Shown: positions 29,171-41,497 of the stretch, piece after piece | Layout: each line of letters opens with the position of its first letter | Position numbering within the stretch: the first letter of the stretch is position 1 | NCBI RefSeq assembly: GCF_004337365.2 | Contig: NZ_CP044016.1 | Span: 3,534,001-3,598,000, forward strand | Length of the DNA stretch: 64,000 nucleotides | DNA from: Rhizosphaericola mali | Lineage (GTDB): Bacteria > Bacteroidota > Bacteroidia > Chitinophagales > Chitinophagaceae | Direction of reading: 5' to 3' | Notes under the pieces: model-generated | What the model was told of the DNA's origin: nothing | Seen by the model: only the letters and a program-made list of their open reading frames with translations | The model's database searches: none | Made by a program: the position numbers and the translations under genes

Positions 29171-30625
29171 ATGGACAGTTTGCTCTTTTTAGAATATTTA
29201 TACGTTCCGATTATTATTGGATTTTGTATACATATTGTCCTCAATACCAAAAACACTAGTAAGACACTCGCTTATCTTCTATTAGTAATTTTCCTACCAC
29301 TCTTAGGTATTATTATATATCTACTTCTCGGCATCAATCAACGTAAAAATAAATTATACAGTCGAAAATTATTGGCAGATCAAGACATTGACAAAAGTAT
29401 CACCGATTATTTTCATTCATTAAATACCGCAGCTTTTCTTTCCCAAAATGAATCCTTATTACGACAAGAAAAAACAGCAAGATTTGTAGCAAAAGATTCG
29501 TTCAGTCCTGTGCTACTACACAACGATGTCAAAATTTTGAATAATGGCGAACTTACCTTTCCTGAAATATTTCATAGTATTGAAAAAGCGAAATCACATA
29601 TTCATATAGAATTTTATATTATTGAAAATGACCAAACTGGCAAACAACTAAAAGAATTACTAATAAAGAAAGCACAACAAGGTATCCAAGTAAGAATTAT
29701 TTATGATGATTTTGGAAGCATGGGCATACGTAATGAATATGCGGAGGAATTACGCAAATATGGTGTTGAGATTTACCCATTTATGAAATTAAAATTTGTT
29801 CAATTTGCAAATAGAGTAAACTATAGAAATCACCGCAAAATTGTTATTGTTGATGGAATCACTTCTTTCGTTGGAGGATTGAATATTTCAGATAGATACC
29901 GCAATGACTTAAACAGTAAACAACATAGTTATTGGAGGGACACACATATTCGTATTGATGGACTAGCAACTTATTCATTACAAAATATATTTTTATGTGA
30001 TTGGAATTTTGCCGCAAACCAATACCTCACGCCTAATGAAGACTTTTTCCCGCAAATAAAAGAGAAGTCAAAATTTAACAAGACAATTCAAATCGTCTCC
30101 AGTGGGCCAGATAGTGAAAACCCAACAATTATGTTTGCTTTAATGCAAGCGATAGCTAGTGCACAAGAGGAGGTATTAATCACAACTCCCTATTTCATAC
30201 CCTCATCTTCAGTTCTCAATATCTTAAAGATTTCAGCAATTAGTGGTGTCAAAATAAAAATTTTAGTTCCATTTCATTCTGATTCTAAAATTGTAGGTGC
30301 TGCAACTTCTGCATATTTTGATGATTTACTAGATGTAGGTATTGAGATTTATCAATATAAAAAAGGATTTATACATAGTAAAACAATGGTTTGTGACCGG
30401 GAAATTGCAATCATAGGAACTGCCAATATGGACATTAGAAGTTTTGATTTAAATTTTGAAGTCAATGCCCATATATATAATCCAACGATTGCTCAAGAAT
30501 TAGCAGCTAATTTTTATGATGATATCAATAATGCCGATAAAATAAATCCTGCCATTTGGAAAGAAAGATCTGTATCTGAAAAACTAATCTCCAATATTGC
30601 AAAACTTTCCTCCTCTTTATTATAA
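29171..30625 (+). CDS. cls: Cardiolipin synthase
   Basis: A 484-residue phospholipase-D superfamily enzyme condensing phosphatidylglycerols to cardiolipin in the inner membrane. Two N-terminal membrane segments (LYVPIIIGFCIHIVL; LAYLLLVIFLPLLGIIIYLL) precede two HKD motifs: HRKIVIVDG with FVGGLNISDRY in the first half, and HSKTMVCDREIAIIGTANMD in the second. This is the bacterial ClsA-type layout. I start at ATG 29171; an in-frame TTG 18 bases upstream has no support. Confidence 0.92.
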   Translation: MDSLLFLEYLYVPIIIGFCIHIVLNTKNTSKTLAYLLLVIFLPLLGIIIYLLLGINQRKNKLYSRKLLADQDIDKSITDYFHSLNTAAFLSQNESLLRQEKTARFVAKDSFSPVLLHNDVKILNNGELTFPEIFHSIEKAKSHIHIEFYIIENDQTGKQLKELLIKKAQQGIQVRIIYDDFGSMGIRNEYAEELRKYGVEIYPFMKLKFVQFANRVNYRNHRKIVIVDGITSFVGGLNISDRYRNDLNSKQHSYWRDTHIRIDGLATYSLQNIFLCDWNFAANQYLTPNEDFFPQIKEKSKFNKTIQIVSSGPDSENPTIMFALMQAIASAQEEVLITTPYFIPSSSVLNILKISAISGVKIKILVPFHSDSKIVGAATSAYFDDLLDVGIEIYQYKKGFIHSKTMVCDREIAIIGTANMDIRSFDLNFEVNAHIYNPTIAQELAANFYDDINNADKINPAIWKERSVSEKLISNIAKLSSSLL

Positions 30626-30631
30626 ATAAAA

Positions 30632-30657
30632 AGAACCGCTCTGAAAAGAGCAGTTCT
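30632..30657 (-). terminator. Orphan minus-strand terminator
   Basis: An 11-bp stem with one mismatch (30632-30642 with 30647-30657), loop of 4. The U tract (CTTTTTATTTA) follows it only on the minus strand, while the plus side has no T run. No minus-strand gene lies upstream for more than 2 kb, so it would end an unannotated transcript. Confidence 0.6.
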
Positions 30658-30804
30658 ACTACAAATCGGTTTAAAAATATCTTAGACAAGACGCTTCGTT
30701 CCGTTTGCTAACCTATGAAAAACACCTAATTTTTAATAACCACTAGGTAAATTTAAAACCAAGTAGATTATTATTTATTTTTAAATTACTTATTTCAATT
30801 AGAG
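30658..30804 (-). ncRNA. Candidate small RNA (tentative)
   Basis: Postulated from the orphan terminator and a TAATTTTG element (minus strand, 30810-30817) that would start a transcript near 30804. The stretch 30665-30720 is less AT-rich than its surroundings. No family (6S, SRP, tmRNA, RNase P) was recognised. Boundaries are guesses. Confidence 0.25.
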
Positions 30805-31132
30805 AGAAACAAAATTAATAAATTAGATTAAACTAAAAAATATTTAAATATAAATATTTGCATATTTTTTATTTAGGTTACCCAAAATTACTAAGCATAA
30901 AAATAGTACAATAAGAATCAAAGTTATTGACATTATAATACATATAAAATTACTGCTATATGTTTCCTAAAAAAATATAAAAAAGCCATTAAAAAAGTGT
31001 TGGTCAATTATCTCCAGTAAATTTCAGTATAAAAGTATTAAAAATTTAGCTCATCCAAAAATATGGTTTTATAAAAAAATATCGACTCCCATAATAAAAG
31101 TTAAAACTATCAACGGAATTCGATAATTTTGA

Positions 31133-31161
31133 TTGTAGAATAGATAGGGAACGTACATTTG
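31133..31161 (+). promoter_or_regulatory. Promoter TTG-N18-TACATTTG of RRM gene
   Basis: TTG at 31133-31135 and TACATTTG at 31154-31161, spacing 18: one of the best matches to the Bacteroidota consensus in the window. ATG 31182 is 20 bases downstream. Confidence 0.75.
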
Positions 31162-31181
31162 TGGCTTATTAATTTATTTAT

Positions 31182-31532
31182 ATGAAATTATTCGTTGCTG
31201 GACTACCTCGTGATTTTGACGATGTAGATTTTAAAGAAATGTTTGAGTTATACGGCACTGTTGCATCTGCAAAAGTGATTATGGATAGAGCAACTCAAAA
31301 GAGTAAAGGATTTGGTTTTTTGGAAATGCCTGTAGACACAGAAGCGAATAGTGTTATTACTACATTGAATGGTGTAAAGATGGCGGGCAAACCATTGGTT
31401 ATCAAAGAAGCAACCGAACAAGCAAGCGCTCCACAAGGCCCAAGACAAGGTGGATTCAGACCACAAGGTCCAAGACAAGGTGGCGGTGGTAATTACAATA
31501 GACCTAATGGTAGATCTCAAAATCGTTATTAA
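31182..31532 (+). CDS. RRM-domain RNA-binding protein with Gly-rich tail
   Basis: A 116-residue protein: one RNA recognition motif (1-80) with RNP2 KLFVAGLP and RNP1 KSKGFGFLEM, then a low-complexity Gly/Arg/Pro tail with two copies of PQGPRQGG. Small single-RRM proteins of this type are common and often highly expressed in Bacteroidota, where they act as post-transcriptional RNA binders. The tail is encoded by a 23-bp direct repeat. DUF423 begins 5 bases after the stop and is probably co-transcribed. The consensus promoter supports high expression. Confidence 0.92.
   Translation: MKLFVAGLPRDFDDVDFKEMFELYGTVASAKVIMDRATQKSKGFGFLEMPVDTEANSVITTLNGVKMAGKPLVIKEATEQASAPQGPRQGGFRPQGPRQGGGGNYNRPNGRSQNRY
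31431..31483 (+). repeat. 23-bp direct repeat inside RRM gene tail
   Basis: Copies at 31431-31453 and 31461-31483, differing at one base, period 30. They encode the duplicated PQGPRQGG. Confidence 0.85.
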
Positions 31533-31537
31533 TCTAC

Positions 31538-31918
31538 ATGGAGCCTAAAAATATCTTCTTGCTCATCGGAGCAATATTTGGTGGTTTCGCTGTTATACTT
31601 GGTGCATTTGGCGCGCACTATTTCAAAAAACTAATTTCGAAAGAGCGATTAGAAAGTTTTGAAACTGATGTAAAATACCAAATGTATCATGCAATCGTCT
31701 TATTAATTGTAGGAGTTGCACTCCCACTCAATACTTCCAGTCAGATATGGGCTTGCCGATGTTTTGTGATCGGCACAATTCTGTTTTCTGGAAGTATTTA
31801 TTTTTTAAGTTTTGCCGATTATTGGAAGAAAAATCTTAAGTTTTTGGGACCTATAACTCCTTTAGGTGGTTTATTTCTCATAATTGGCTGGGGTAGTCTA
31901 GTAGCCTATTTTCTCTAA
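31538..31918 (+). CDS. DUF423 family membrane protein
   Basis: A 126-residue protein with four membrane segments and the DUF423 signature near the N-terminus (IFGGFAVILGAFGAHYFKK) and YQMYHAIVLLIVGV. A C-terminal TPLGGLFLIIGWGSLV block is also typical. Function unknown (YwdK-like). It starts 5 bases after the RRM gene, sharing its promoter. Confidence 0.88.
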   Translation: MEPKNIFLLIGAIFGGFAVILGAFGAHYFKKLISKERLESFETDVKYQMYHAIVLLIVGVALPLNTSSQIWACRCFVIGTILFSGSIYFLSFADYWKKNLKFLGPITPLGGLFLIIGWGSLVAYFL

Positions 31919-31970
31919 TTTTGGAGAAAAAACGTCACAAAATTCATGTATTCTTTAACTTCACGCACAC

Positions 31971-32996
31971 ATGAATCGTAAAGACTTTCTAAAAAATACA
32001 AGTTTAGCTTTTGGTGCTGCAGCACTTTCCATTTCTACTAAAGCAAATACGCTTACTCGAAAGAAAATCACAATTCCTCCTTATTTAAAATCAGGCGATA
32101 CGATCGGAATAACTTGTCCGGCAGGACATATTTCATTAGAAGAAATACAACCTTCATTGGAAGTAATGCAATCATGGGGATTGAAAATCCTAATTGGTGA
32201 AACGGTTGGCAAAAAATGGGGCACATTTGGAGGTACAGATCAAGAACGTATTGAGGATTTTGAAAAAATGCTTCGAAATACAAATGTCAAAGCGATCATG
32301 TGTGCTCGAGGTGGTTATGGGATTGTTCGAATAATTAATGCTATAAATATTAATCTTTTGGAAGAAAATCCTAAATGGATTATTGGTTTTAGTGATGTAA
32401 CGGTTTTGCATAGTCACATCAATAGCAATCAGCGTATTGCGACGATTCATTCCAAAATGTGCAATAGTTTTCCTGATGTATGGCAGACGGCAGAACAATT
32501 ACGCAAAGACTCCATTATTTCCATACAAAAAGCGCTTTTTGGAGAGGCTGTTAATTATAATATTTTACCAAACTCTTATAACAGGATTGGCATCGCAGAT
32601 GCGGAAGTAATTGGAGGCAATCTACGCACAATAGAAAACTTAGCAGGTACCATATCTGAAATCCAAACAAAAGGGAAAATTCTCTTTTTGGAAGAAGTTG
32701 AGGAGCCGATGTACAATGTAGATCGTATGTTTTGGAATCTAAAGCGTACAGGAAAATTAGCAGAATTGAAAGGACTGATCATCGGCGGATTTAAAATCAA
32801 GCCTGACGATGATCCTGCAGATGCTTTTGGTTTATCCATGTATGAAATCATTTTAGAAAAAACGAAAGAGTACGATTATCCGATTTGTTTTGATTTTCCA
32901 GTCGGACATCAAGTAAATAATTTTGCTATTAAGTGTGGCGTGAAACACCATTTACAAGTATCCGCATCCAATATAGTTTTTAAAGAAATACAATAA
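31971..32996 (+). CDS. LD-carboxypeptidase (S66), signal-bearing copy
   Basis: A 341-residue S66-family serine peptidase, which cleaves the L,D bond before the terminal D-Ala of muropeptide tetrapeptides, or microcin-like substrates in MccF relatives. The N-terminus MNRKDFLKNTSLAFGAAALS resembles a Tat-type signal, with RK in place of RR. Catalytic Ser is in GFSDVT, Glu in FLEEVEEPMYNVDR, His in FPVGHQVNN; RGGYG is also conserved. Its stop overlaps the ATG of the next gene by one base (TAATG), and that gene is a paralogue. Confidence 0.88.
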   Translation: MNRKDFLKNTSLAFGAAALSISTKANTLTRKKITIPPYLKSGDTIGITCPAGHISLEEIQPSLEVMQSWGLKILIGETVGKKWGTFGGTDQERIEDFEKMLRNTNVKAIMCARGGYGIVRIINAININLLEENPKWIIGFSDVTVLHSHINSNQRIATIHSKMCNSFPDVWQTAEQLRKDSIISIQKALFGEAVNYNILPNSYNRIGIADAEVIGGNLRTIENLAGTISEIQTKGKILFLEEVEEPMYNVDRMFWNLKRTGKLAELKGLIIGGFKIKPDDDPADAFGLSMYEIILEKTKEYDYPICFDFPVGHQVNNFAIKCGVKHHLQVSASNIVFKEIQ

Positions 32997-33910
32997 TGAA
33001 AGAGCTCATTTTACCTCCATATTTGAAACAAGGTGACACGATTGGAATTGTTTGTCCATCAGGCTACATGCCAAAGGAAAATGCCGAAAATTGTATTCTT
33101 TTTTTGGAAGAACAAGGTTTCAAAGTCCAAACTGGCCCAACACTTGGAGGTCAATTTCACTATTTTTCAGGTACGGATCAAGAACGTTTGGATGATTTAC
33201 AAAGGATGTTGGATGACACCAACATTAAGGCGATATTATTCGGACGTGGAGGATATGGTATGAGTCGTATTATCGACAGGTTAGATTTCTCCAAATTTAA
33301 AAAACAACCCAAATGGATCATTGGCTATAGTGATATCACCTTATTGCTTTTGCATCTAGAAAATAAGCTGCGAATTGCATCTTTGCATGCACCCATGGCG
33401 GGCGCATTTAATAAAGAAGTAGCATCTGAAACATATCGCAATTCTTTACTTCCTGCAATTACTGGGGACCGATTGAAATACAAAATCGATGCCGAACCGT
33501 TAAACATTTTAGGCAAATGTCAAGGAGAATTAATTGGAGGTAATTTATGTTTACTAGCGCATTCTTTAGGAACACCTTCTGCACCAAAAACAAAAGGAAA
33601 AATATTATTTATCGAAGAAGTTGGCGAATATATTTATGGCGCTGATCGATATATATGGCAATTGAAAAGAGCCGGTTTTTTCAAAAACTTAGCAGGTATT
33701 ATTATCGGAAGCTTTTCGGATATGAAAGACACAACCATACCTTTTGGCTCGACCATGGAAGAAGCAATTTTGAATGATTTAAAAGAATATAAAATCCCCA
33801 TTGCTTTCAACTTTCCGGTTGGTCATACAGAGCGAAATGTTGCATTGAAGGTCGGCGTCAAATTCAAATTAGACGTTCAAAAAAAAGCTACCACATTAGA
33901 GGAACTATAA
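32996..33910 (+). CDS. LD-carboxypeptidase (S66), cytoplasmic copy
   Basis: A 304-residue paralogue of the preceding gene, without any signal peptide (MKELILPPYLKQGDTIGIV). The Ser-Glu-His triad is in GYSDIT, FIEEVGEYIYGADR and FPVGHTERN. This form is the typical LdcA of peptidoglycan recycling, acting in the cytoplasm. The TAATG overlap with the upstream paralogue indicates coupled translation. Its last 6 bases overlap the end of the convergent flavoprotein gene. Confidence 0.9.
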   Translation: MKELILPPYLKQGDTIGIVCPSGYMPKENAENCILFLEEQGFKVQTGPTLGGQFHYFSGTDQERLDDLQRMLDDTNIKAILFGRGGYGMSRIIDRLDFSKFKKQPKWIIGYSDITLLLLHLENKLRIASLHAPMAGAFNKEVASETYRNSLLPAITGDRLKYKIDAEPLNILGKCQGELIGGNLCLLAHSLGTPSAPKTKGKILFIEEVGEYIYGADRYIWQLKRAGFFKNLAGIIIGSFSDMKDTTIPFGSTMEEAILNDLKEYKIPIAFNFPVGHTERNVALKVGVKFKLDVQKKATTLEEL

Positions 33911-34984
33911 TTCTGGAAAAAATAAAGCGTGTTGACTTCCTGTTTGAAAGTCTCTCCATATTTGATTTAGTAATGTATCATGATGCATTATGGTCAAACC
34001 ACAATATGGGAAAAGCATATTGACAATGTCCCGGCATGTTCTAGCTAAAGATTGCGCAGATTCATTTACATGAGAATAGTCGATATCTAATTTCTCTGCA
34101 ACTACATCCTGCCAAGTTGATTCGACATTTGTAAATAATTCTTGACGGACATTTTCTAATTGACCTTCCAAATCCAATACAATGGAATTCAAATGCGCAT
34201 TTTCTGAAAGAAGATTACCATCTTTTCCCTTTTTTATAGAAAAATATTTTTTGCACTCTTCTATAAAGTGAATCGTCATGCCTGATAGATTCGCACCAAC
34301 TGTCGCCCCCGCCAATGGATGAAATGGATATCGATACAATGCAGTATTTATAATTGGATGATTTTCATCAATGGCAAATATTCTATTTTTAGGTACTTCA
34401 TTTTTCACTAATTCAAATGAATGTCCAGCAGATGCGACCAAACCAATTTCGCTCCAACTACTAGAAATCCCAACTTCATTTTTCAAAAAGCAAAAAGATT
34501 GAATAATTTCTGAATCATTTTTGGAAATACAATTCGCTGTAAAAACGGTAGCATCTGGAGCGCCACTCGCATATTTCCAATTACCAGAAATTTGGTATTC
34601 GTTCTCTAAGGCTTCAAAAATACCCGTCGGTGCACCACTTCCAGCCAAACAAGCTTTGGGATTTGCAAAAATCAATTTGGCAAAATTTTCATCCAAATAG
34701 CCACCAAACCAGCCGGCACCACTACATAATGTAAATACCCAACCAGCCGAACCGTCTACCCAACCAATAGCTTCTTCAAAGCGAACAATTTCTGGCAACG
34801 TCCATTCTAATCCACCATATATTTTGGGAACCAATGCAAGAAACCATTTTTGGGAATAAAAAAGAGCTAACTGTTTGTCAGTTAGCCTTTTATTTTTTTC
34901 TGCTTGCGCTGCATCTGTTCTGATTATTTCAATCCATTCTTTTTTTAGCAATTCGGATGGATGATTTGCAATGTTCAAATTCAT
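33905..34984 (-). CDS. Acyl-CoA dehydrogenase-like flavoprotein (possible group D monooxygenase)
   Basis: A 359-residue protein of the acyl-CoA dehydrogenase superfamily: VPKIYGGLEWTLPEIVRFEEAIG at the N-terminus, SGNWKYASGAPDA in the beta domain and a C-terminal helical domain ending NQIWRDFQTGSQHALFF, the pattern of the Acyl-CoA_dh_2 domain of DszC/HpaH-like flavin monooxygenases. No clear acyl-CoA dehydrogenase catalytic Glu was found. Its ATG overlaps the stop of the persulfide dioxygenase gene by one base (TAATG), so the pair is translationally coupled. A role in sulfur or organosulfur chemistry is inference. Confidence 0.75.
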   Translation of the reverse strand: MNLNIANHPSELLKKEWIEIIRTDAAQAEKNKRLTDKQLALFYSQKWFLALVPKIYGGLEWTLPEIVRFEEAIGWVDGSAGWVFTLCSGAGWFGGYLDENFAKLIFANPKACLAGSGAPTGIFEALENEYQISGNWKYASGAPDATVFTANCISKNDSEIIQSFCFLKNEVGISSSWSEIGLVASAGHSFELVKNEVPKNRIFAIDENHPIINTALYRYPFHPLAGATVGANLSGMTIHFIEECKKYFSIKKGKDGNLLSENAHLNSIVLDLEGQLENVRQELFTNVESTWQDVVAEKLDIDYSHVNESAQSLARTCRDIVNMLFPYCGLTIMHHDTLLNQIWRDFQTGSQHALFFPEL

Positions 34985-36396
34985 TAATTTAAAACGCTTT
35001 TACTTTTTTCCGTAGGAATCTTCGTTTCTTTTAGCGCAGCATAACCACCCAAAATATTATGGATATTATGAAATCCTTGTCTTTTGATTAAAGAAGCTGC
35101 AATAACACTTCTGTAACCGCCAGCACAATGCAGATACACATTGAACAATTCTTCCATATCTGCCAAATATCCAGCAGGATCAATCAATTTATCCAAAGGA
35201 ATATTGTCTGCTTTTACAACATGTCCTTCTGCATATTCACTTTCTTTGCGTACATCCAAAATAATCAAATTATCATCAAATTGGTAATCCATAGCCACTT
35301 CGTCTGCCGGTATATTGACAACCAAATCAATCTGCTTTCCAGCATTTTTCCAAGCGTCAAATCCTCCTTTCAAATAACCACCAAATTTTTCAAAACCAAC
35401 TCTCGCCAATCTTGTCGCCGTTTCTTTTTCCTTACCTTCATCTGTCACCAATAATAGCGTCGCGTCAAACGGCAATAAACTGCCTGCCCATTCTGCAAAT
35501 CGGCCATTCAAGCCTATGAAAATACTTGTTGGGATAAAGCCATCCGTAAAATCTGATTCATTTCTTGTATCTAAAATGATTACATTTTCCTCTTTAGATT
35601 TTACTTCAAATGAGTCTACATCCAACGCCTGTAATGCGTTTTCCAACACAGAATCCAAAGAAGCATATCCTTTTTTGTTGATTTCAGCATTGATCGGAAA
35701 ATAAGCTGGAGGCGTAGAAAGACCGTCCGTTACATTGGAAATAAACTCACCTCTACTTTTAGATAAGAGTGCATAATTGGTCTCTTTTTGTTCGCCTACA
35801 GTACTAAATGTTTTCGAACTCAAACTTTTTCCACAGCTACTTCCCGCACCGTGTGCAGGGTAAACGATCACATCATCTTGTAAAGGGAAAATTTTTGCAT
35901 GCAAACTATCATACATCAATCCAGCAAGATCCTCTGGCGTATACAATTCACCTTTTTGGGATAAATCAGGACGACCAACATCTCCAACAAACAAAGTATC
36001 ACCCGTAAACACAGCATATTCTTTACCATCAGCATCTTTGAGAAGATAGCAAGTACTTTCTAATGTATGTCCAGGTGTATGTAAAACTTCTAGGGAAATA
36101 TTTCCAATAGGAAAAGTCTGATGATCTTTTGCGATGATGGCTTTGAAGTTGGGCTTCGCATCCGGACCGTAAACTATTGGTGCTCCAGTTGCCTTACTCA
36201 AGTCCAAATGCCCACTCACAAAATCTGCATGAAAATGTGTTTCGAAAATATACTTAATCGTTGCGTTTCTATCTTTTGCCAACCCAAGATAATTATCAAG
36301 ATCTCGCATTGGATCGATAATTACCGCTTCGCCATTATCCTCTATATAATAGGACGCCTCACTGAGGCATCCTGTATAAATCTGTTCTACGTACAT
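34984..36396 (-). CDS. CstB-like persulfide dioxygenase-rhodanese
   Basis: A 470-residue three-domain protein. Residues 1-240 are a metallo-beta-lactamase-fold persulfide dioxygenase (HFHADFVSGHLDL, HTPGHTLES, FTGDTLFVGDVGRPDL). Residues about 255-360 are a rhodanese-like domain without active-site Cys (the loop reads LLVTDEGKEKE). Residues about 365-465 are a rhodanese domain with Cys in LHCAGGYRS. This order, including the dead middle domain, is that of staphylococcal CstB, which oxidises low-molecular-weight persulfides to thiosulfate. It lies below an ArsR gene and above a coupled flavoprotein gene on the minus strand. Confidence 0.88.
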   Translation of the reverse strand: MYVEQIYTGCLSEASYYIEDNGEAVIIDPMRDLDNYLGLAKDRNATIKYIFETHFHADFVSGHLDLSKATGAPIVYGPDAKPNFKAIIAKDHQTFPIGNISLEVLHTPGHTLESTCYLLKDADGKEYAVFTGDTLFVGDVGRPDLSQKGELYTPEDLAGLMYDSLHAKIFPLQDDVIVYPAHGAGSSCGKSLSSKTFSTVGEQKETNYALLSKSRGEFISNVTDGLSTPPAYFPINAEINKKGYASLDSVLENALQALDVDSFEVKSKEENVIILDTRNESDFTDGFIPTSIFIGLNGRFAEWAGSLLPFDATLLLVTDEGKEKETATRLARVGFEKFGGYLKGGFDAWKNAGKQIDLVVNIPADEVAMDYQFDDNLIILDVRKESEYAEGHVVKADNIPLDKLIDPAGYLADMEELFNVYLHCAGGYRSVIAASLIKRQGFHNIHNILGGYAALKETKIPTEKSKSVLN

Positions 36397-36416
36397 AAAC
36401 TTAAGATTATTCTACG

Positions 36417-36444
36417 CAAAATTACGAAAAAGATAAGCGACCAA
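36417..36444 (-). promoter_or_regulatory. Promoter TTG-N17-TAATTTTG of cstB-like operon
   Basis: On the minus strand TTG at 36442-36444 and TAATTTTG at 36417-36424, spacing 17; 20 bases before the start codon at 36396, within the gap after the ArsR gene. Confidence 0.6.
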
Positions 36445-36456
36445 AAAGGAATTAAT

Positions 36457-36792
36457 TTATTTCAAAAGATCACCTACGAATCCATTGATTTCATCAATAC
36501 GTGCGTAGTTTAAAGTGTAGTAGATAAATTTTCCTTCTCTTTGCGTATCCACGATATTGGCTCTACGCAAAATAGCTAAATGTTGAGAGGCTACGGACTG
36601 TTCGATTCTCAATTTGATATAGATTTCTGTTACAGTCAACTTCTGCTTTTCATCAATCAATTTGATAATCTGTAGTCTTAATTTGTGATTTAAAGCTCTT
36701 AATGTCAAAGCTGCTTTCTTCAATTGAATAAAATCAATGGAAGTTTCTGATTTCGACTCTGGATTTTTTAATAAAATCTGCTGTTGTGACAT
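36457..36792 (-). CDS. ArsR-family winged-helix regulator, cysteine-free
   Basis: A 111-residue ArsR/SmtB protein with the winged helix at about 25-95 (LRALNHKLRLQIIKLIDEKQ; QSVASQHLAILRRANIVDTQ; REGKFIYYTLN). It contains no cysteine at all, unlike the persulfide sensors BigR/SqrR and most arsenic or metal sensors. It lies directly upstream of the CstB-like operon and 26 bases downstream of tsaB, so it may control the sulfur operon, but by some non-thiol signal, or it may control another target. Confidence 0.88.
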   Translation of the reverse strand: MSQQQILLKNPESKSETSIDFIQLKKAALTLRALNHKLRLQIIKLIDEKQKLTVTEIYIKLRIEQSVASQHLAILRRANIVDTQREGKFIYYTLNYARIDEINGFVGDLLK

Positions 36793-36818
36793 AAATAGTT
36801 TTTGTTTTTTAAGTGCAA

Positions 36819-37517
36819 CTAATTTGTTGACGTGGGTTTTGCTGTTGTATAAAATTCTTTGAAATAATTAGGTTGACTGTAAGCGACATCACTAAAATCT
36901 GAAATAGCAAATTTTGCTTGTGCCAACGTATTTACTTGTGAGACATTCATAGTTACGTCTAGAAACTGAGCATTAGCTTGCACATTTAAAAGTGGTTTCA
37001 ATTTAGAAGCACCATTGCCACTAAAAAGCAACTTACCTTTCTCAAGCCAATTATCCCAATAAGTTGCTTCTAATGTAATAGCTTGTATATCTGTCAATAA
37101 TTCTAACTCTTGATTATAAATCGCCGTAAAAACATCCAAACGTCTTGCATCGATCATCGGACAAAAAAATAATGCATCTCCAATATTAGAAACATAATCT
37201 TCTTTTGCCGCCAAAGCCATTGCTTGTAATGTATTTACAAGTATTAATGGTTTGTTTTGAGCATAGCAGACACCTTTGGCAGATGCCATAGCGACTCTTA
37301 ATCCAGTATAACTGCCAGGACCTTCTGTTACTGCGATTGCATCCAAATCTTGGAATAAAACTCCAGATTTGTCTAAAATTTCAACAACGGCTGGTTGGAT
37401 AAATGAAGCGTGGTCTCTCTGTTCAAAGTTTTCTAAAATGTCAATTTTCTCGTTATTTCTATACAATCCGACGCTCGCTCTATCTGTCGATGCGTCTAAT
37501 GATAAAATCAAAGACAT
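36819..37517 (-). CDS. tsaB: tRNA threonylcarbamoyladenosine synthesis protein TsaB
   Basis: A 232-residue ASKHA-fold protein, partner of TsaD and TsaE in making t6A37 in ANN-decoding tRNAs. The N-terminal LSLDASTDRASVGLYRN and the block VTEGPGSYTGLRVAMASAKG are diagnostic of TsaB/YeaZ. Length matches. The ArsR gene begins 26 bases after its stop, so they may share a transcript from the promoter at 37580. Confidence 0.93.
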   Translation of the reverse strand: MSLILSLDASTDRASVGLYRNNEKIDILENFEQRDHASFIQPAVVEILDKSGVLFQDLDAIAVTEGPGSYTGLRVAMASAKGVCYAQNKPLILVNTLQAMALAAKEDYVSNIGDALFFCPMIDARRLDVFTAIYNQELELLTDIQAITLEATYWDNWLEKGKLLFSGNGASKLKPLLNVQANAQFLDVTMNVSQVNTLAQAKFAISDFSDVAYSQPNYFKEFYTTAKPTSTN

Positions 37518-37579
37518 TTTGATAATTGATAAGCTCTAAAAATTTATATCTTGTTGTTTCTTAAACAACCTAAAAGTAA

Positions 37580-37587
37580 CAAAAATA
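37580..37587 (-). promoter_or_regulatory. -7 promoter element TATTTTTG of tsaB
   Basis: An exact TAnnTTTG match on the minus strand 62 bases before the tsaB ATG. A TTG lies 20 bases further up (37608-37610). A 7-bp hairpin (37553-37569) would lie near the 5' end of the transcript. Confidence 0.5.
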
Positions 37588-37667
37588 AATAATATGAGAA
37601 AAATATTCAATTCTATTTGAAATAAATTAATATTACAGCACTTTTGAAAGAATTAAATAAAAAAATC

Positions 37668-38051
37668 ATGGCAATTGAAATAATAAATACGAAAAATGCG
37701 CCGGCGCCTATCGGACCATACAATCAATCTGTAAAAGCTGGAAATTTTTTATTTGTAAGTGGACAGATTCCTTTAGACCCAATTTCTATGGAATTGGTAA
37801 ATAAAACGGTGGACGAGGAAACGCATCAAGTATTTAAAAATATCTTAGCAATTTTGAAAGAAGCAGGTGCCACTTTGGACAATGTAGTTAAAGTAACAGT
37901 TTTCTTAAGCGATATGTCCCTATTTGCTCAAGTAAATGAAATTTATGGTTCATATTTTACAAAAAATGAACCTGCTCGAGAATGTGTTGCTGTCAAAACT
38001 TTACCTAAAAATGTAAATGTCGAGATTAGCGTTACTGCATATCTAGATTAA
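37668..38051 (+). CDS. ridA: RidA family enamine/imine deaminase
   Basis: A 127-residue YjgF/RidA protein that hydrolyses reactive enamine/imine intermediates from PLP enzymes. Signature blocks APAPIGPYNQSVKAGNFLFV, SGQIPLDP and EPARECVAVKTLPKNVNVEI are present, with the carboxylate-binding Arg in PARECV. I start at ATG 37668 (MAIEIINTK); an in-frame TTG at 37644 adds an unconserved extension. A terminator follows and overlaps the end of the convergent glycosyltransferase gene. Confidence 0.93.
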   Translation: MAIEIINTKNAPAPIGPYNQSVKAGNFLFVSGQIPLDPISMELVNKTVDEETHQVFKNILAILKEAGATLDNVVKVTVFLSDMSLFAQVNEIYGSYFTKNEPARECVAVKTLPKNVNVEISVTAYLD

Positions 38052-38058
38052 TCTTATA

Positions 38059-38094
38059 GAAACGGGACTTTCAATCCCATTGAATTCCCGTTTC
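38059..38094 (+). terminator. Intrinsic terminator of ridA
   Basis: Outer 9-bp stem (38059-38067 with 38086-38094), inner TTCAAT/ATTGAA stem, then TTTTTT. It overlaps the stop of the convergent glycosyltransferase. Confidence 0.85.
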
Positions 38095-39225
38095 TTTTTT
38101 ATTATTACTACCAATTATAGCACAACTCTTTTTATAAAATAAATATTGGTAACGTGTTTTATTTTTTTGCATAAACATTAATGCTTGACTGTAGCTCCAA
38201 TTTTTTCCAACACAAAACAATACGGTATCTGCTCCATCTAACTTCTGTTGATCAATTATTTCAAACCCTTCAATATTTTTTTTCAGAATAGATTCTGCTG
38301 ATTCAAATATGGACGAATCTCCCATAAAACAAATCGTTTTAGGATGAAATGAATTAGTATTTGCAACCTTATTACCTAATCTTTCAAATAATGCACGTCC
38401 TTTAACTGCTCCATTTAAAAAGGATTTAAATAATAATTTATTCCAATTTCTATAATATTTCGCTACATATAAAATCATTGCCTCGTAGAAAACTTTTACA
38501 TGCTTGGATTTATTCTGCTTGGTACTCTCCCCTTTAAAATGCAAGATAGATTGCGTACCCAAATAATAATTGCAATAACCTTTCAATATTATTTGTTGCG
38601 AAAGATCAATATCTTCTCCATACATGAAAAACTGTGGATCAAAACCACCAATAGACTTCACGACAGTTGTCCTCGCCATAAAAAAGGCTCCCGCAATAAC
38701 ATCAATAAAACAATCAGAATCCTTTGATACATTGCCCAAGGCATATTTATTAAAGAAAGCTGAACTAGGAAAAATAGTCGACAATCCTGTTAATTTCATC
38801 AATGACACAGAGAAAGTAGGTATACTTCGTTTACTTTCAGACAAAAAACAACCATTGCCATCCAACATCTTCACACCCAATCCTCCAATAGAAGCATCCA
38901 ATTCAAATTGTCTAATACAACTAGTTAGAACATTTTCTGTTATGATAGTATCAGGATTTAGAAATAGCACAAGATCACTACTTACATATTTTAAAGCTTC
39001 ATTATTTGCCTTACCAAAACCTACATTCTCTTTTAGGTAAATAAATTGGACTTCTGGAAATTTTTCTTCCATTAATACGTTATTTGGCAGAAATGTAGCA
39101 TTATCAACAACTATAATTTGTACTTTATCCATATTATTGTCCACGGATAGCAAAGAATACAAGCAATGCTCTAAAAAATAAGGGACTTGATAATGTACAA
39201 TAATAACTGATAAGGATAAAGCCAT
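38071..39225 (-). CDS. Glycosyltransferase family 2
   Basis: A 384-residue GT-A enzyme: LSVIIVHYQVPYFLEHCLYS at the start, VVDNAT, the DxD-like region LVLFLNPDT (about residues 85-95), and MYGEDIDLSQQI acceptor/metal motif. This resembles the rhamnosyltransferase-like GT2 proteins of surface polysaccharide synthesis. The C-terminal 90 residues carry an extra Rossmann-like segment (FHPKTICFMGDSSIFESAE) of unknown use. No neighbouring polysaccharide genes besides lpxA, which is divergent. Confidence 0.85.
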   Translation of the reverse strand: MALSLSVIIVHYQVPYFLEHCLYSLLSVDNNMDKVQIIVVDNATFLPNNVLMEEKFPEVQFIYLKENVGFGKANNEALKYVSSDLVLFLNPDTIITENVLTSCIRQFELDASIGGLGVKMLDGNGCFLSESKRSIPTFSVSLMKLTGLSTIFPSSAFFNKYALGNVSKDSDCFIDVIAGAFFMARTTVVKSIGGFDPQFFMYGEDIDLSQQIILKGYCNYYLGTQSILHFKGESTKQNKSKHVKVFYEAMILYVAKYYRNWNKLLFKSFLNGAVKGRALFERLGNKVANTNSFHPKTICFMGDSSIFESAESILKKNIEGFEIIDQQKLDGADTVLFCVGKNWSYSQALMFMQKNKTRYQYLFYKKSCAIIGSNNKKETGIQWD

Positions 39226-39429
39226 GTATATAAAATCGTTTAAAAATAGATAATCATTATATTAACGTAAATAAAAGTGCAAGATTTTGTTATAATTTAT
39301 AAAATATCATAGATAATTATTAAAAATTAAATTTTCATTAATTCTTGCCTTATTTTTGATATAACAAAGATTTTGCAAATAATAATGAGGTGTTTTTTCG
39401 CAGAAATGAAAATAATGCATTAATTTGTC

Positions 39430-39437
39430 TATTTTTG
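39430..39437 (+). promoter_or_regulatory. -7 promoter element TATTTTTG of lpxA
   Basis: An exact TAnnTTTG match 69 bases before the lpxA ATG, leaving a leader of about 60 bases in which no regulatory fold was recognised. Confidence 0.5.
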
Positions 39438-39506
39438 CGCCCCATTTGGCATAAGTAATAATCAAGTTGCGTGGAAAACTCCAATTTGTTATTTTAAAAT
39501 TAGTAA

Positions 39507-40322
39507 ATGAGTAATACTCTTTCATACATACATCCAGGAGCAAAAATTGCTCAGAATGTACAAATTGATCCTTTTTCTGTTATACATGACAATGTTGAAA
39601 TTGGAGAAGGTACATGGATTGGCAGTAATGTAACCATTTTTGGAGGTGCACGAATTGGGAAAAATTGTAAAATTTTTCCTGGAGCTGTAATTTCTGCTGT
39701 TCCGCAGGATCTTAAATACGCAGGAGAAGAGACTACTGCGGAGATCGGCGACAACACAACAATCAGAGAATGTGTAACCGTAAACAAAGGAACTTCAGAT
39801 AAATGGAAAACAGTTATTGGTAAAAACTGTTTGATCATGGCATATGCACACGTTGCACATGATTGTATCATTAGTGACCATTGTATTATAAGTAATAGTA
39901 CCCAACTTGGAGGACATATTACTGTAGATGAATGGGCTATTATAGGAGGCAGTTGCGCATTTCAACAATTCACCCATGTAGGTGCTCATTCTTATACTGG
40001 TGGTGGTTCTTTGGTTAATAAAGATATACCTCCATTTGTTAAAGCGGTAAGACATCCAATTAGTTTTGGAGGGATAAATGTAGTTGGTTTAAAAAGGAGA
40101 GGTTTTACATCCGAACAAATTAACTTGGTCATGGAAATCTATCGTTATGTATATAACCGTGGATTGAATACTTCTCAAGCTATACAATCTATTGAGAGTG
40201 AATTTGCACAAACGGAAGTACGTGATGAAGTTTTGGAATTTATCAGATCAAGTAAATTAGGAATTATCAAAGGTGCACCGATGTCCCTTTTGGGTGAAGA
40301 GCTCACTGCAGATGCAGAATAA
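39507..40322 (+). CDS. lpxA: UDP-N-acetylglucosamine acyltransferase
   Basis: A 271-residue left-handed beta-helix enzyme that adds the first 3-hydroxyacyl chain to UDP-GlcNAc in lipid A synthesis. Hexapeptide repeats run from residue 8 to about 190 (IHPGAKIAQNVQIDPFSVI; IGKNCKIFPGAVIS). The catalytic His lies in AYAHVAHDCIISDHC, followed by GGHITVDEWAIIGG. The C-terminal helical domain starts at about 195. Length is typical. A palindromic terminator follows. Confidence 0.95.
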   Translation: MSNTLSYIHPGAKIAQNVQIDPFSVIHDNVEIGEGTWIGSNVTIFGGARIGKNCKIFPGAVISAVPQDLKYAGEETTAEIGDNTTIRECVTVNKGTSDKWKTVIGKNCLIMAYAHVAHDCIISDHCIISNSTQLGGHITVDEWAIIGGSCAFQQFTHVGAHSYTGGGSLVNKDIPPFVKAVRHPISFGGINVVGLKRRGFTSEQINLVMEIYRYVYNRGLNTSQAIQSIESEFAQTEVRDEVLEFIRSSKLGIIKGAPMSLLGEELTADAE

Positions 40323-40352
40323 ATTTAGTAGAATACTAGAAAATCTTAATAA

Positions 40353-40392
40353 TTAAAAAATAAGCGACTTAATTAAGTCGCTTATTTTTTAA
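40353..40392. terminator. 40-bp perfect palindrome, bidirectional terminator
   Basis: The 40 bases 40353-40392 are fully self-complementary, with A- and T-rich ends. It closes lpxA and contains the stop codon (40382-40384) of the convergent gene. Confidence 0.85.
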
Positions 40393-41497
40393 TATCTCCG
40401 GGACTAGTACAAATAAATAGTTTACTAGAATTCTCTGCATTAGTAACTTTACCTTCCAAGATACTTTGTCCCGTATCACCAGGATCATTTCCGTGTCCTA
40501 ACGGCCAAGTACCCTTTGTATCTTGTATTTCAATACCAGATATTGCAGCAATACATAATCCAAAATCTGTACAATTATTTTTGTTCAAATGATACTTTTT
40601 ACGACTATATTGCCTTACCATTTTGATGATCAATTTGAATTGCTTATAAGAAATAAACTTTCCAACTGTTTCATCCCAAAGATGCAAAGAATCATTTTTA
40701 AATGTAGAACTTGTTCCTGGCATTAAAGGTGTCGCCGATAAAAAGTTGTCTTTATCTGGATAAAAGCCAAAGGTTCTAGAGACAGACTTCCCATTGGGTT
40801 CAAATTTCACCAAAGTAATAAACATGTGTCCCACATTATTAATCAATCCAAATTGCTTTCTTTTTCCAAATTCCGGTTGTTTAAGATGCAACATAATTCC
40901 ATAAGCTAAACCTTCCTCATCATCTTTAAAAGGAGCTAATAATTTTCGATTCGTAATAGTTTTAGACCTAACATCTCTAGATTTATTTCTTAACAGAATG
41001 GTGTCGTTTCCAAAAACAAAGGCCGCGTTTTTTTCAACAGAATCTTCAGAAAAATGCTCCGTTGGAAACTCTAAAAAACTGCTATCAAAGGAGTTATGAA
41101 ACTTTTCATTAGACATACTTGCGTCATCAAACGCAGAAGCTAGAGAAAAATATTTTAATGCCAATGGATAATTTTTATAACGCGCCATTAACACCGCAAG
41201 ATTATAATAGGCTTTGTTGGATATCCATTTGATGCCCTTTGTTTTTTTAGTATTACTTATGTATTGAAAAAAAGAATTGATTGCATTTGGATCCATTTTT
41301 TCCACGGCAATCTCTCCTGTAGAGATTGAGTCTAAATCAAATGTAATTTTAGATAAAGGCGTCAATCTTTTGACCGAATCATTCACAACAATTATAGACC
41401 CAGAATCAAAAGTTCGATTGGGTCCACTCCTTTGGCTATAGGAACTAATTGCCGTAAAAAAACTAAAGAGAAAAAATATGATTTCTTTGAGGTTCAT
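40382..41497 (-). CDS. Exported protein of unknown function, possible Cys/His peptidase-like
   Basis: A 371-residue protein with a signal peptide (MNLKEIIFFLFSFFTAISSYSQ). The middle (about 88-125) has a TPR-like stretch (NLAVLMARYKNYPLALKYFS). The last third carries LINNVGHMFITLVKFEP and, further on, NKNNCTDFGLCIAAISGI: a GH...  and NNC pair resembling the His and Cys of permuted NlpC/P60-like or DUF4105-like (Lnb-type) enzymes. I do not recognise the family with certainty. The stop codon is inside the shared terminator. No operon partner. Confidence 0.6.
   Translation of the reverse strand: MNLKEIIFFLFSFFTAISSYSQRSGPNRTFDSGSIIVVNDSVKRLTPLSKITFDLDSISTGEIAVEKMDPNAINSFFQYISNTKKTKGIKWISNKAYYNLAVLMARYKNYPLALKYFSLASAFDDASMSNEKFHNSFDSSFLEFPTEHFSEDSVEKNAAFVFGNDTILLRNKSRDVRSKTITNRKLLAPFKDDEEGLAYGIMLHLKQPEFGKRKQFGLINNVGHMFITLVKFEPNGKSVSRTFGFYPDKDNFLSATPLMPGTSSTFKNDSLHLWDETVGKFISYKQFKLIIKMVRQYSRKKYHLNKNNCTDFGLCIAAISGIEIQDTKGTWPLGHGNDPGDTGQSILEGKVTNAENSSKLFICTSPGDIKK

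Follow-up and report, generated by a model that had tools for sequence, protein, structure and literature searches.

A monooxygenase-like flavoprotein encoded behind cstB in Rhizosphaericola mali is probably a relocated member of thiamine-linked operons

Observation

In a 64,000-nucleotide stretch of the Rhizosphaericola mali genome (contig NZ_CP044016.1, positions 3,534,001 to 3,598,000; here referred to as "the window"), the gene for a flavin monooxygenase-like protein directly follows the gene for a CstB-like persulfide dioxygenase. We consider it probable that this flavoprotein is a monooxygenase of the Rv3094c/HsaA type, that its gene moved from a thiamine uptake operon headed by a TPP riboswitch to its place behind cstB, and that it still oxygenates a thiamine-related or similar heterocycle. 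Because homologues are often encoded in vitamin B1 uptake operons, the protein probably represents a moved vitamin B1-related oxygenase and not a component of some new sulfur pathway.

A tightly spaced gene pair kept in two species

The genes of the locus lie on the reverse strand. Read in that direction, tsaB (tRNA t6A synthesis; positions 36819 to 37517; TIGR03725 136.8 bits against a cut-off of 69.3) is followed by the gene for a 111-amino-acid (aa) ArsR-family regulator without Cys (36457 to 36792), of which tsaB is the usual upstream neighbor, then by cstB (34984 to 36396; 470 aa) and the flavoprotein gene (33905 to 34984; 359 aa), which has cstB and an S66 peptidase gene as its neighbors. 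As an earlier note on this DNA had reported, the stop codon TAA of cstB and the start codon ATG of the flavoprotein gene have one base in common (junction TTAATG). The arrangement is not limited to this strain: a genome of a second species of the genus has the junction CTAAATG, a zero-base gap. Since the coupling recurs in a species that has diverged this far (CstB 70% and flavoprotein 56% identical), it is more than chance, and both proteins may be made from one message in fixed ratio. No genes for sulfide:quinone reductase, TauE, or CstA were recognized by eye among the open reading frames (ORFs) of positions 30000 to 41000, six of which were run against Pfam.

The upstream protein of the pair has the domain order of CstB, that is, a metallo-β-lactamase (MBL) domain, a Cys-less and inactive first (pseudo-)rhodanese, and an active C-terminal rhodanese, with an active-site-type Cys in the second rhodanese only. 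The MBL motif THFHADF begins at residue 53, Cys188 lies within HGAGSSCGKS, and Cys424 of the C-terminal rhodanese lies within HCAGGYRS. Approximately whole-length matches to the solved MBL-rhodanese proteins 3tp9 (E 1e-70) and 3r2u (E 2e-57), the latter of which we take to be Staphylococcus aureus CstB, align both Cys positions. This bears out, at the level of sequence, the earlier assignment of a CstB-type enzyme with putative persulfide dioxygenase activity. Unlike the S. aureus cst locus, the locus has a Cys-free ArsR protein in place of CstR.

The flavoprotein groups with FMN monooxygenases

The predicted fold of the flavoprotein (pLDDT 93.8) is most similar to that of Rv3094c (PDB 7f70/7f72/7f74; Z 42.7 over 347 residues, rmsd 2.0), which is also found by profile search (E 1e-43) and by a single-sequence match of near whole length (E 3e-26). 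Next come HsaA, p-hydroxyphenylacetate hydroxylase C2 (HpaH-C2), XiaF, and two Rhodococcus hydroxylases (Z 38 to 42). The protein shares with HsaA, C2, and XiaF its fold and a conserved WRDxH-type C-terminal end with a near-invariant His (His352), while differing from these oxygenases in sequence (14 to 20% identity; 87.6 bits against the cut-off of 450 for the NCBIfam HsaA model).

A true acyl-CoA dehydrogenase is not the closest group, in either fold (Z 32 to 34.5, against 42.7 for Rv3094c) or profile (E 1e-4 for human branched-chain acyl-CoA dehydrogenase and for named dehydrogenases such as 2jif, against 1e-43 for Rv3094c); the entries 5gj7/5z8t, titled putative acyl-CoA dehydrogenase and flavin-containing monooxygenase, match at E 2e-17. 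The C-terminal WRD...H stretch, read from the sequence rather than from a residue-level superposition, has no Glu motif resembling YEGT, which is presumably the site of the catalytic Glu in acyl-CoA dehydrogenases. DszC and methanesulfinate monooxygenase are among the relatives found by profile, and the DszC/TdsC dibenzothiophene monooxygenases belong to the same superfamily. DszC (profile E 4e-13, Z 33) is no closer in fold than the dehydrogenases, and a DszC-like desulfurase is not the closest group. Judged by sequence and predicted fold, the nearest relatives of the flavoprotein are the FMN monooxygenases Rv3094c and HsaA, with acyl-CoA dehydrogenases and DszC further off. The earlier reading of the protein as monooxygenase-like rather than dehydrogenase-like is supported, but the label "DszC-like" is imprecise, Rv3094c and HsaA being nearer.

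According to PMC9904262, the Mycobacterium tuberculosis protein Rv3094c is an FMN monooxygenase acting on ethionamide by S-oxygenation; its gene is transcribed together with that of a predicted reductase, and Phe221 is a gate residue. The R. mali protein is only 22% identical to Rv3094c and aligns Ala225 with this Phe, and no flavin reductase gene was recognized beside its gene. The flavin reductase family PF01613 had no match in the R. mali genome (0/1; controls 13/14). Catalysis by the flavoprotein would use reduced flavin and O2. An anti-phage role was rejected, as neither CstB nor the flavoprotein was matched by PADLOC.

Homologues accompany PnuC/PnuT transporters and TPP riboswitches

A gene of the PnuC/PnuT family (PF04973) lies directly upstream of the flavoprotein gene, on the same strand, at 6 of the 13 flavoprotein loci of relatives other than R. 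mali. It holds the directly upstream position likewise at 9 of 20 phylum-sample loci, at 4 of 16 further loci drawn from the top 20 of 72 matches within the family, and at 66 of 80 named GTDB loci (the best 80 of 505 relatives), where 57 of the 66 are Mucilaginibacter by record title and the loci with another title have it in 9/21. These sets overlap, some genomes being in more than one (L180 is the G001 contig, and the contigs of L212, L221, and L229 are as long as those of G412, G428, and G152). Neighborhoods were covered for 13/13 loci of relatives and for 20 of the 25 additional phylum-sample loci (without G263, G300, G107, G404, and G390), and were read within about 1.5 kb at the 16 family loci; genes without a family match were named by BLAST to a labelled neighbor or by eye. 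We call the transporter PnuT because of its linkage to TPP riboswitches, which makes this an inferred name.

TPP riboswitch matches stand directly upstream of 14 of the 15 transporter- or receptor-led units tested (5/6 among the relatives and 9/9 in the phylum sample); two of the 14 reach the Rfam cut-off, and the other 12 have E values of 1e-8 to 3e-4 per genome. In one genome (G002), a match above the cut-off leads a TonB receptor gene and then the flavoprotein gene. Among the 66 PnuT-linked GTDB loci, 59 have a gene for a TonB receptor-like protein ahead of the transporter, and genes for a PF01663 phosphodiesterase-family protein (43 units) and a ThiE/TenI-like protein (30 units) follow on the same strand within four ORFs. 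The linkage is not universal: of 18 genomes scanned for riboswitches, nine carry the flavoprotein gene with no PnuT partner or, in G012, with a pair that has no riboswitch. TPP matches in those nine are located elsewhere in the genome; the exception is G215, with one between the flavoprotein gene and a downstream TonB receptor gene.

According to PMC5613172, the OMthi-pnuT-tnr3 operon of Bacteroides is a thiamine operon with a TPP riboswitch. The homologue units resemble it in joining a TonB receptor and PnuT under such a riboswitch, and differ in having the flavoprotein behind PnuT where the Bacteroides operon has tnr3; the main text of that paper does not mention acyl-CoA, flavin, or monooxygenase. 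Our search of the open-access literature, a scope that excludes most subscription journals and is not proof of being unpublished, returned no report of a flavoprotein-PnuT link or of a flavoprotein-CstB pair.

The R. mali genome itself has three TPP riboswitches, located before ThiM-ThiE-ThiD-TenA, a TonB receptor, and two PnuC-family genes. None is near the window flavoprotein, which has no adjoining PnuT gene and no riboswitch at gathering score within the window, so that its substrate may have changed. ThiC had no match in this genome. Dependence of the flavoprotein on a missing ThiC is a weak explanation: ThiC is absent from 14 of 15 genomes with the PnuT-flavoprotein pair, but equally from 42 of 59 relatives; ThiC occurs in 3/14 family genomes with the flavoprotein and 5/22 without it, and the two do not track each other.

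Placement of the cstB-linked pair and a model for its origin

In a quick tree, the two cstB-linked flavoproteins form a pair (SH-aLRT 95) within an 11-row subclade that lacks PnuT linkage (subclade fork 87, drawn open). This subclade groups with mostly PnuT-linked rows (fork 90), and more PnuT-linked rows lie outside it (forks 84 to 88), so the pair appears, with moderate support, to nest among PnuT-linked homologues. The window protein is 29 to 43% identical to the PnuT-linked members compared. Other members of the subclade have various other neighbor genes, and an Rfam scan of six subclade loci (60.9 kb) found nothing at E 0.05.

We suggest that the older context of the flavoprotein in Bacteroidota would be a thiamine uptake operon under a TPP riboswitch, comprising a TonB receptor, a PnuC/PnuT transporter, and the flavoprotein, which the gene would have left in the lineage to this genus to settle directly behind cstB. 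The cstB promoter, which lies in the arsR-cstB gap, would now drive its expression through read-through and translational coupling. The protein most likely would still use O2 and reduced FMN to oxygenate a heterocycle related to thiamine, or an S/N-heterocycle similar to it; the adjoining CstB would oxidize persulfides to sulfite by itself.

Alternative readings

The earlier note had proposed that the set may be a distinct reactive-sulfur pathway. Applied to this genus, CstB and the flavoprotein would form one module: the flavoprotein would oxygenate a sulfur compound, releasing persulfide or sulfide for CstB to clear. We regard this as unlikely. The near-zero junction in both species, the promoter element upstream of cstB in both, the S-oxygenase activity of the closest solved relative, Rv3094c (PMC9904262), and the DszC and methanesulfinate monooxygenase relatives all speak for such a module. 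However, among all loci examined the flavoprotein adjoins CstB only in the two genomes of this genus, for which reason we give the proposal little weight; the same holds for the ArsR-cstB-flavoprotein triple, which rejects, for these loci, a three-family module conserved across Bacteroidota. CstB-type matches occur in 59/59 relatives (some not full-length), against 14/59 for the flavoprotein. Nor is there a clear signal of specialization. Both cstB-linked members differ at positions 187 and 226, which are kept in 79 and 80 of 85 PnuT-linked proteins, as well as in the 11 relatives listed; in all, conserved residues are replaced at 7 positions in the pair, against up to 8, 14, and 24 in other pairs without PnuT linkage (50 to 60% identity). 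PnuT-linked pairs average 0.04 departures, a figure to be read knowing that these proteins themselves define the conserved residues. That the gene order is incidental, with the flavoprotein co-expressed behind another gene and having no functional link to CstB, has about an even chance of being true, and it is compatible with relocation because it denies only the sulfur link. It fits the other neighbors of subclade members and the ArsR-cstB pairs that stand without the flavoprotein in most family genomes having the pair. It sits less easily with a coupling that has persisted while the two species diverged considerably.

A role in reactive-sulfur sensing for the ArsR protein, by a Cys-independent mechanism, seems doubtful, a shade more so than the sulfur module. 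Its lack of Cys was noted earlier and was confirmed by our count (0 Cys), which leaves the locus without an adjacent Cys-bearing CstR, BigR, or SqrR sensor; the protein scores 52.5 of 155 bits against the BigR model. This is no peculiarity of R. mali, given that 25 of 30 orthologues have no Cys and five have one (30 best-scoring loci, proteins trimmed to the homologous start). For sensing speaks the gene order: of 36 family genomes, 22 have cstB directly downstream of the ArsR gene and another 4 have a tandem-rhodanese gene there (from the top ArsR match and the CstB matches listed per genome). Against it, the ArsR gene follows tsaB in 28/30 and 16/20 loci examined (3 genomes twice) with or without cstB downstream; the protein belongs to a tsaB-linked family, of which it would be an old regulator. 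cstB moreover keeps a promoter element of its own, TAnnTTTG, which we take to be the consensus of the -7 element, in 13 of 16 arsR-cstB gaps, whereas 500 first-order Markov resamplings averaged 0.7 and never exceeded 5 (16 of the 22 pairs; the L067 stretch ended before the ATG). In the window this element is TAATTTTG (36417 to 36424, reverse strand), 28 nt before the cstB ATG, with a TTTG read by eye 17 nt upstream (36442 to 36445) as a possible -33 element. No shared operator was noticed by eye in these gaps, and the ArsR protein may or may not bind at the cstB promoter.

A more speculative extension of the thiamine link, to which we assign still less probability than to ArsR sensing, is that the flavoprotein is an undescribed Bacteroidota flavin monooxygenase for O2-dependent thiamine salvage, made at low TPP. 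It would open or S-oxygenate the damaged thiazole ring, freeing the pyrimidine for re-use, and would be wired to cstB here as the released sulfur enters persulfide oxidation. If true, vitamin B1 salvage would be joined to reactive-sulfur clearance.

Implications

Relocation of a thiamine-linked monooxygenase, the reading we prefer, gives a hint of function for a large family classed by Pfam among the acyl-CoA dehydrogenases, whose members resemble monooxygenases and tend to be encoded together with a TonB receptor, PnuT, and a TPP riboswitch. It raises the question of what role an O2-dependent enzyme may have in vitamin B1 acquisition. For the R. mali locus, a concrete history, probable relocation behind cstB, replaces a guessed sulfur pathway.

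Locus organization and transcription

Four minus-strand genes follow one another in the order tsaB (37517-36819), arsR (36792-36457), a cstB-like persulfide dioxygenase-rhodanese gene (36396-34984), and the flavoprotein gene FLV (34984-33905). Two tandem S66 LD-carboxypeptidase genes (31971-33910), which have one base in common, converge on FLV, and the second overlaps it by 6 bases. The stop codon of cstB overlaps the FLV start codon by one base, as the earlier note correctly observed; in G001, the only other genome of the genus examined, they directly abut, and the contig stops within FLV, so the region downstream of FLV is unreadable there. Within the FLV coding region, a 9-bp hairpin with a T-run lies on the minus strand at 34865-34887; three such sites were found in the region, within chance (2.0 expected).

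A TAnnTTTG element was present near the cstB start in 13 of 16 arsR-cstB gaps, whereas 500 Markov resamplings averaged 0.7 gaps with it and never exceeded 5 of 16. It lies 21 to 28 nt before the cstB ATG in 12 of these 13 gaps; the remaining stretch ended before the ATG. The window copy is TAATTTTG (36424-36417, minus strand). From this element, we infer that cstB and FLV are probably one unit transcribed from a promoter in the arsR-cstB gap, with arsR probably grouped with tsaB, directly behind which it lies in 28 of 30 loci in one set and 16 of 20 in another (three genomes are counted twice).

The dioxygenase and its neighboring regulator

Judged by its sequence, the cstB-like protein looks like an ordinary CstB-type protein: it aligns with 3tp9 and 3r2u across nearly its full length, carries the MBL motif THFHADF, Cys188, and Cys424, and has a first rhodanese domain without Cys. 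Matches, some not full-length, occur in 59 of 59 relatives. The absence of Cys from the adjacent ArsR protein was confirmed but is a family-wide trait (25 of 30 orthologues are Cys-free, and 5 have one Cys). Within the family, 22 of 36 genomes have cstB next after arsR, and another 4 have a tandem-rhodanese gene there; the association of ArsR with sulfur enzymes is thus real yet not constant. A second ArsR paralogue stands behind arsR in many loci from other families of the order; we saw it, with 0 or 1 Cys, at loci L260-L269, L277, L278, L064, and L080, and at L260 and L261 it is followed by cstB.

A predicted flavin monooxygenase

Pfam recognizes only a C-terminal acyl-CoA dehydrogenase 2 domain in FLV, and NCBIfam returns an HsaA match far below its cut-off. 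The closest solved relative is Rv3094c (profile E 1e-43), and the confident predicted model (mean pLDDT 93.8), which was also compared by Foldseek, aligns with Rv3094c at Z 42.7, with HsaA, HpaH-C2, XiaF, and two Rhodococcus hydroxylases at Z 38-42, and with DszC at Z 33. A C-terminal stretch including His352 is near-invariant in alignments of 28 and 30 sequences. Given the Z scores, the profile match, and this stretch, FLV is assigned by homology to the Rv3094c/HsaA-type flavin monooxygenases; a dehydrogenase was rejected, as acyl-CoA dehydrogenases reach only Z 32-34.5. Rv3094c is reported to S-oxygenate ethionamide using FMN (PMC9904262), which by analogy sets an example of S-oxidation without showing that FLV acts on the same substrate. 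Counting against our reading, a search of the R. mali genome for a PF01613 flavin reductase had no hit.

Linkage of the FLV family to thiamine uptake

Of 59 relatives, 14 carry an FLV homologue; at E 1e-20 the count among 395 phylum genomes is 30, and at E 1e-30 72 of the 294 genomes of the family have one. These three counts include R. mali itself. A further 505 homologue-bearing stretches come from GTDB. A PnuC-family transporter gene (PF04973) directly precedes, and often overlaps, the homologue in 6 of the 13 other relatives and in 9 of the 20 loci examined from the phylum. The same order, here called PnuT-linked, appears in 66 of the best 80 named GTDB loci, although 57 of these are Mucilaginibacter and thus not independent; among loci with other titles, the count is 9 of 21. 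Ahead of the transporter, 59 of the 66 also have a TonB receptor-like gene. On the 3' side of FLV in these 66, which are among L180-L259, the same strand carries within 4 ORFs a phosphodiesterase-family gene (PF01663) in 43 loci, a gene like ThiE/TenI in 30, and a thiamine pyrophosphokinase-like gene, named by eye, in 13; the L113 copy of the last had no Pfam match.

A TPP riboswitch match lies directly upstream of 5 of 6 transporter-FLV units in relatives and 9 of 9 in phylum loci, before the transporter or, in four cases, before the receptor leading the unit; in genome G012, the pair is present and no riboswitch was detected there. Only two of these 14 matches (G008 and G023) reach the Rfam gathering score, the other 12 having E values of 1e-8 to 3e-4 per genome, and all 14, including those 12, sit at the expected leader place. 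In G002, the match exceeds the cut-off, and a TonB receptor and then FLV come after it. In those of the phylum genomes scanned that lack the pair, TPP matches are located elsewhere; the exception is G215, which has one in the interval from FLV to a TonB receptor gene downstream. The arrangement is like the OMthi-pnuT-tnr3 operon as described in PMC5613172, but with FLV as the third gene. A point against our reading is that FLV presence does not track ThiC within the family (ThiC is present in 3 of 14 genomes with FLV versus 5 of 22 without).

In R. mali, TPP riboswitches precede ThiM-ThiE-ThiD-TenA, a TonB receptor, and two PnuC-family genes, and ThiC had no match in the genome; a thiamine system separate from the FLV locus is retained. 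Elsewhere (L163, L164, and L165, from G012, G018, and G027), a TPP match of 43-51 bits, below the Rfam cut-off, leads a TonB receptor gene. A CstB homologue comes after the receptor on that strand, separated from it in 2 of 3 by a gene that looked by eye like a zinc peptidase, and the 90 nt ahead of the called CstB ORF lack a TAnnTTTG element. This is a possible second CstB-thiamine link.

Probable relocation of FLV

In a quick maximum-likelihood tree, the window FLV pairs with that of G001 (SH-aLRT 95), adjoining Arachidicoccus, Siphonobacter, and Filimonas homologues. Its subclade of 11 rows, none of them PnuT-linked (support 87, left open), groups with 13 mostly PnuT-linked rows (support 90), and further PnuT-linked rows lie outside (supports 84-88). 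Six loci of the subclade had no Rfam matches, and the window had no riboswitch at gathering score. The simplest history would have FLV move out of a thiamine operon and later, in this genus, settle behind cstB. The cstB-linked pair departs from conserved residues to an extent also seen in other pairs lacking PnuT linkage. The genus-specific coupling may be functional, since it is intact in two species whose FLV proteins are only 56% identical.

The distinct reactive-sulfur pathway that the earlier note proposed for this locus is weakly supported, and the window FLV is probably a relocated member of a family linked to thiamine uptake. The more useful finding is the family itself, flavin monooxygenase-like and linked to thiamine uptake.
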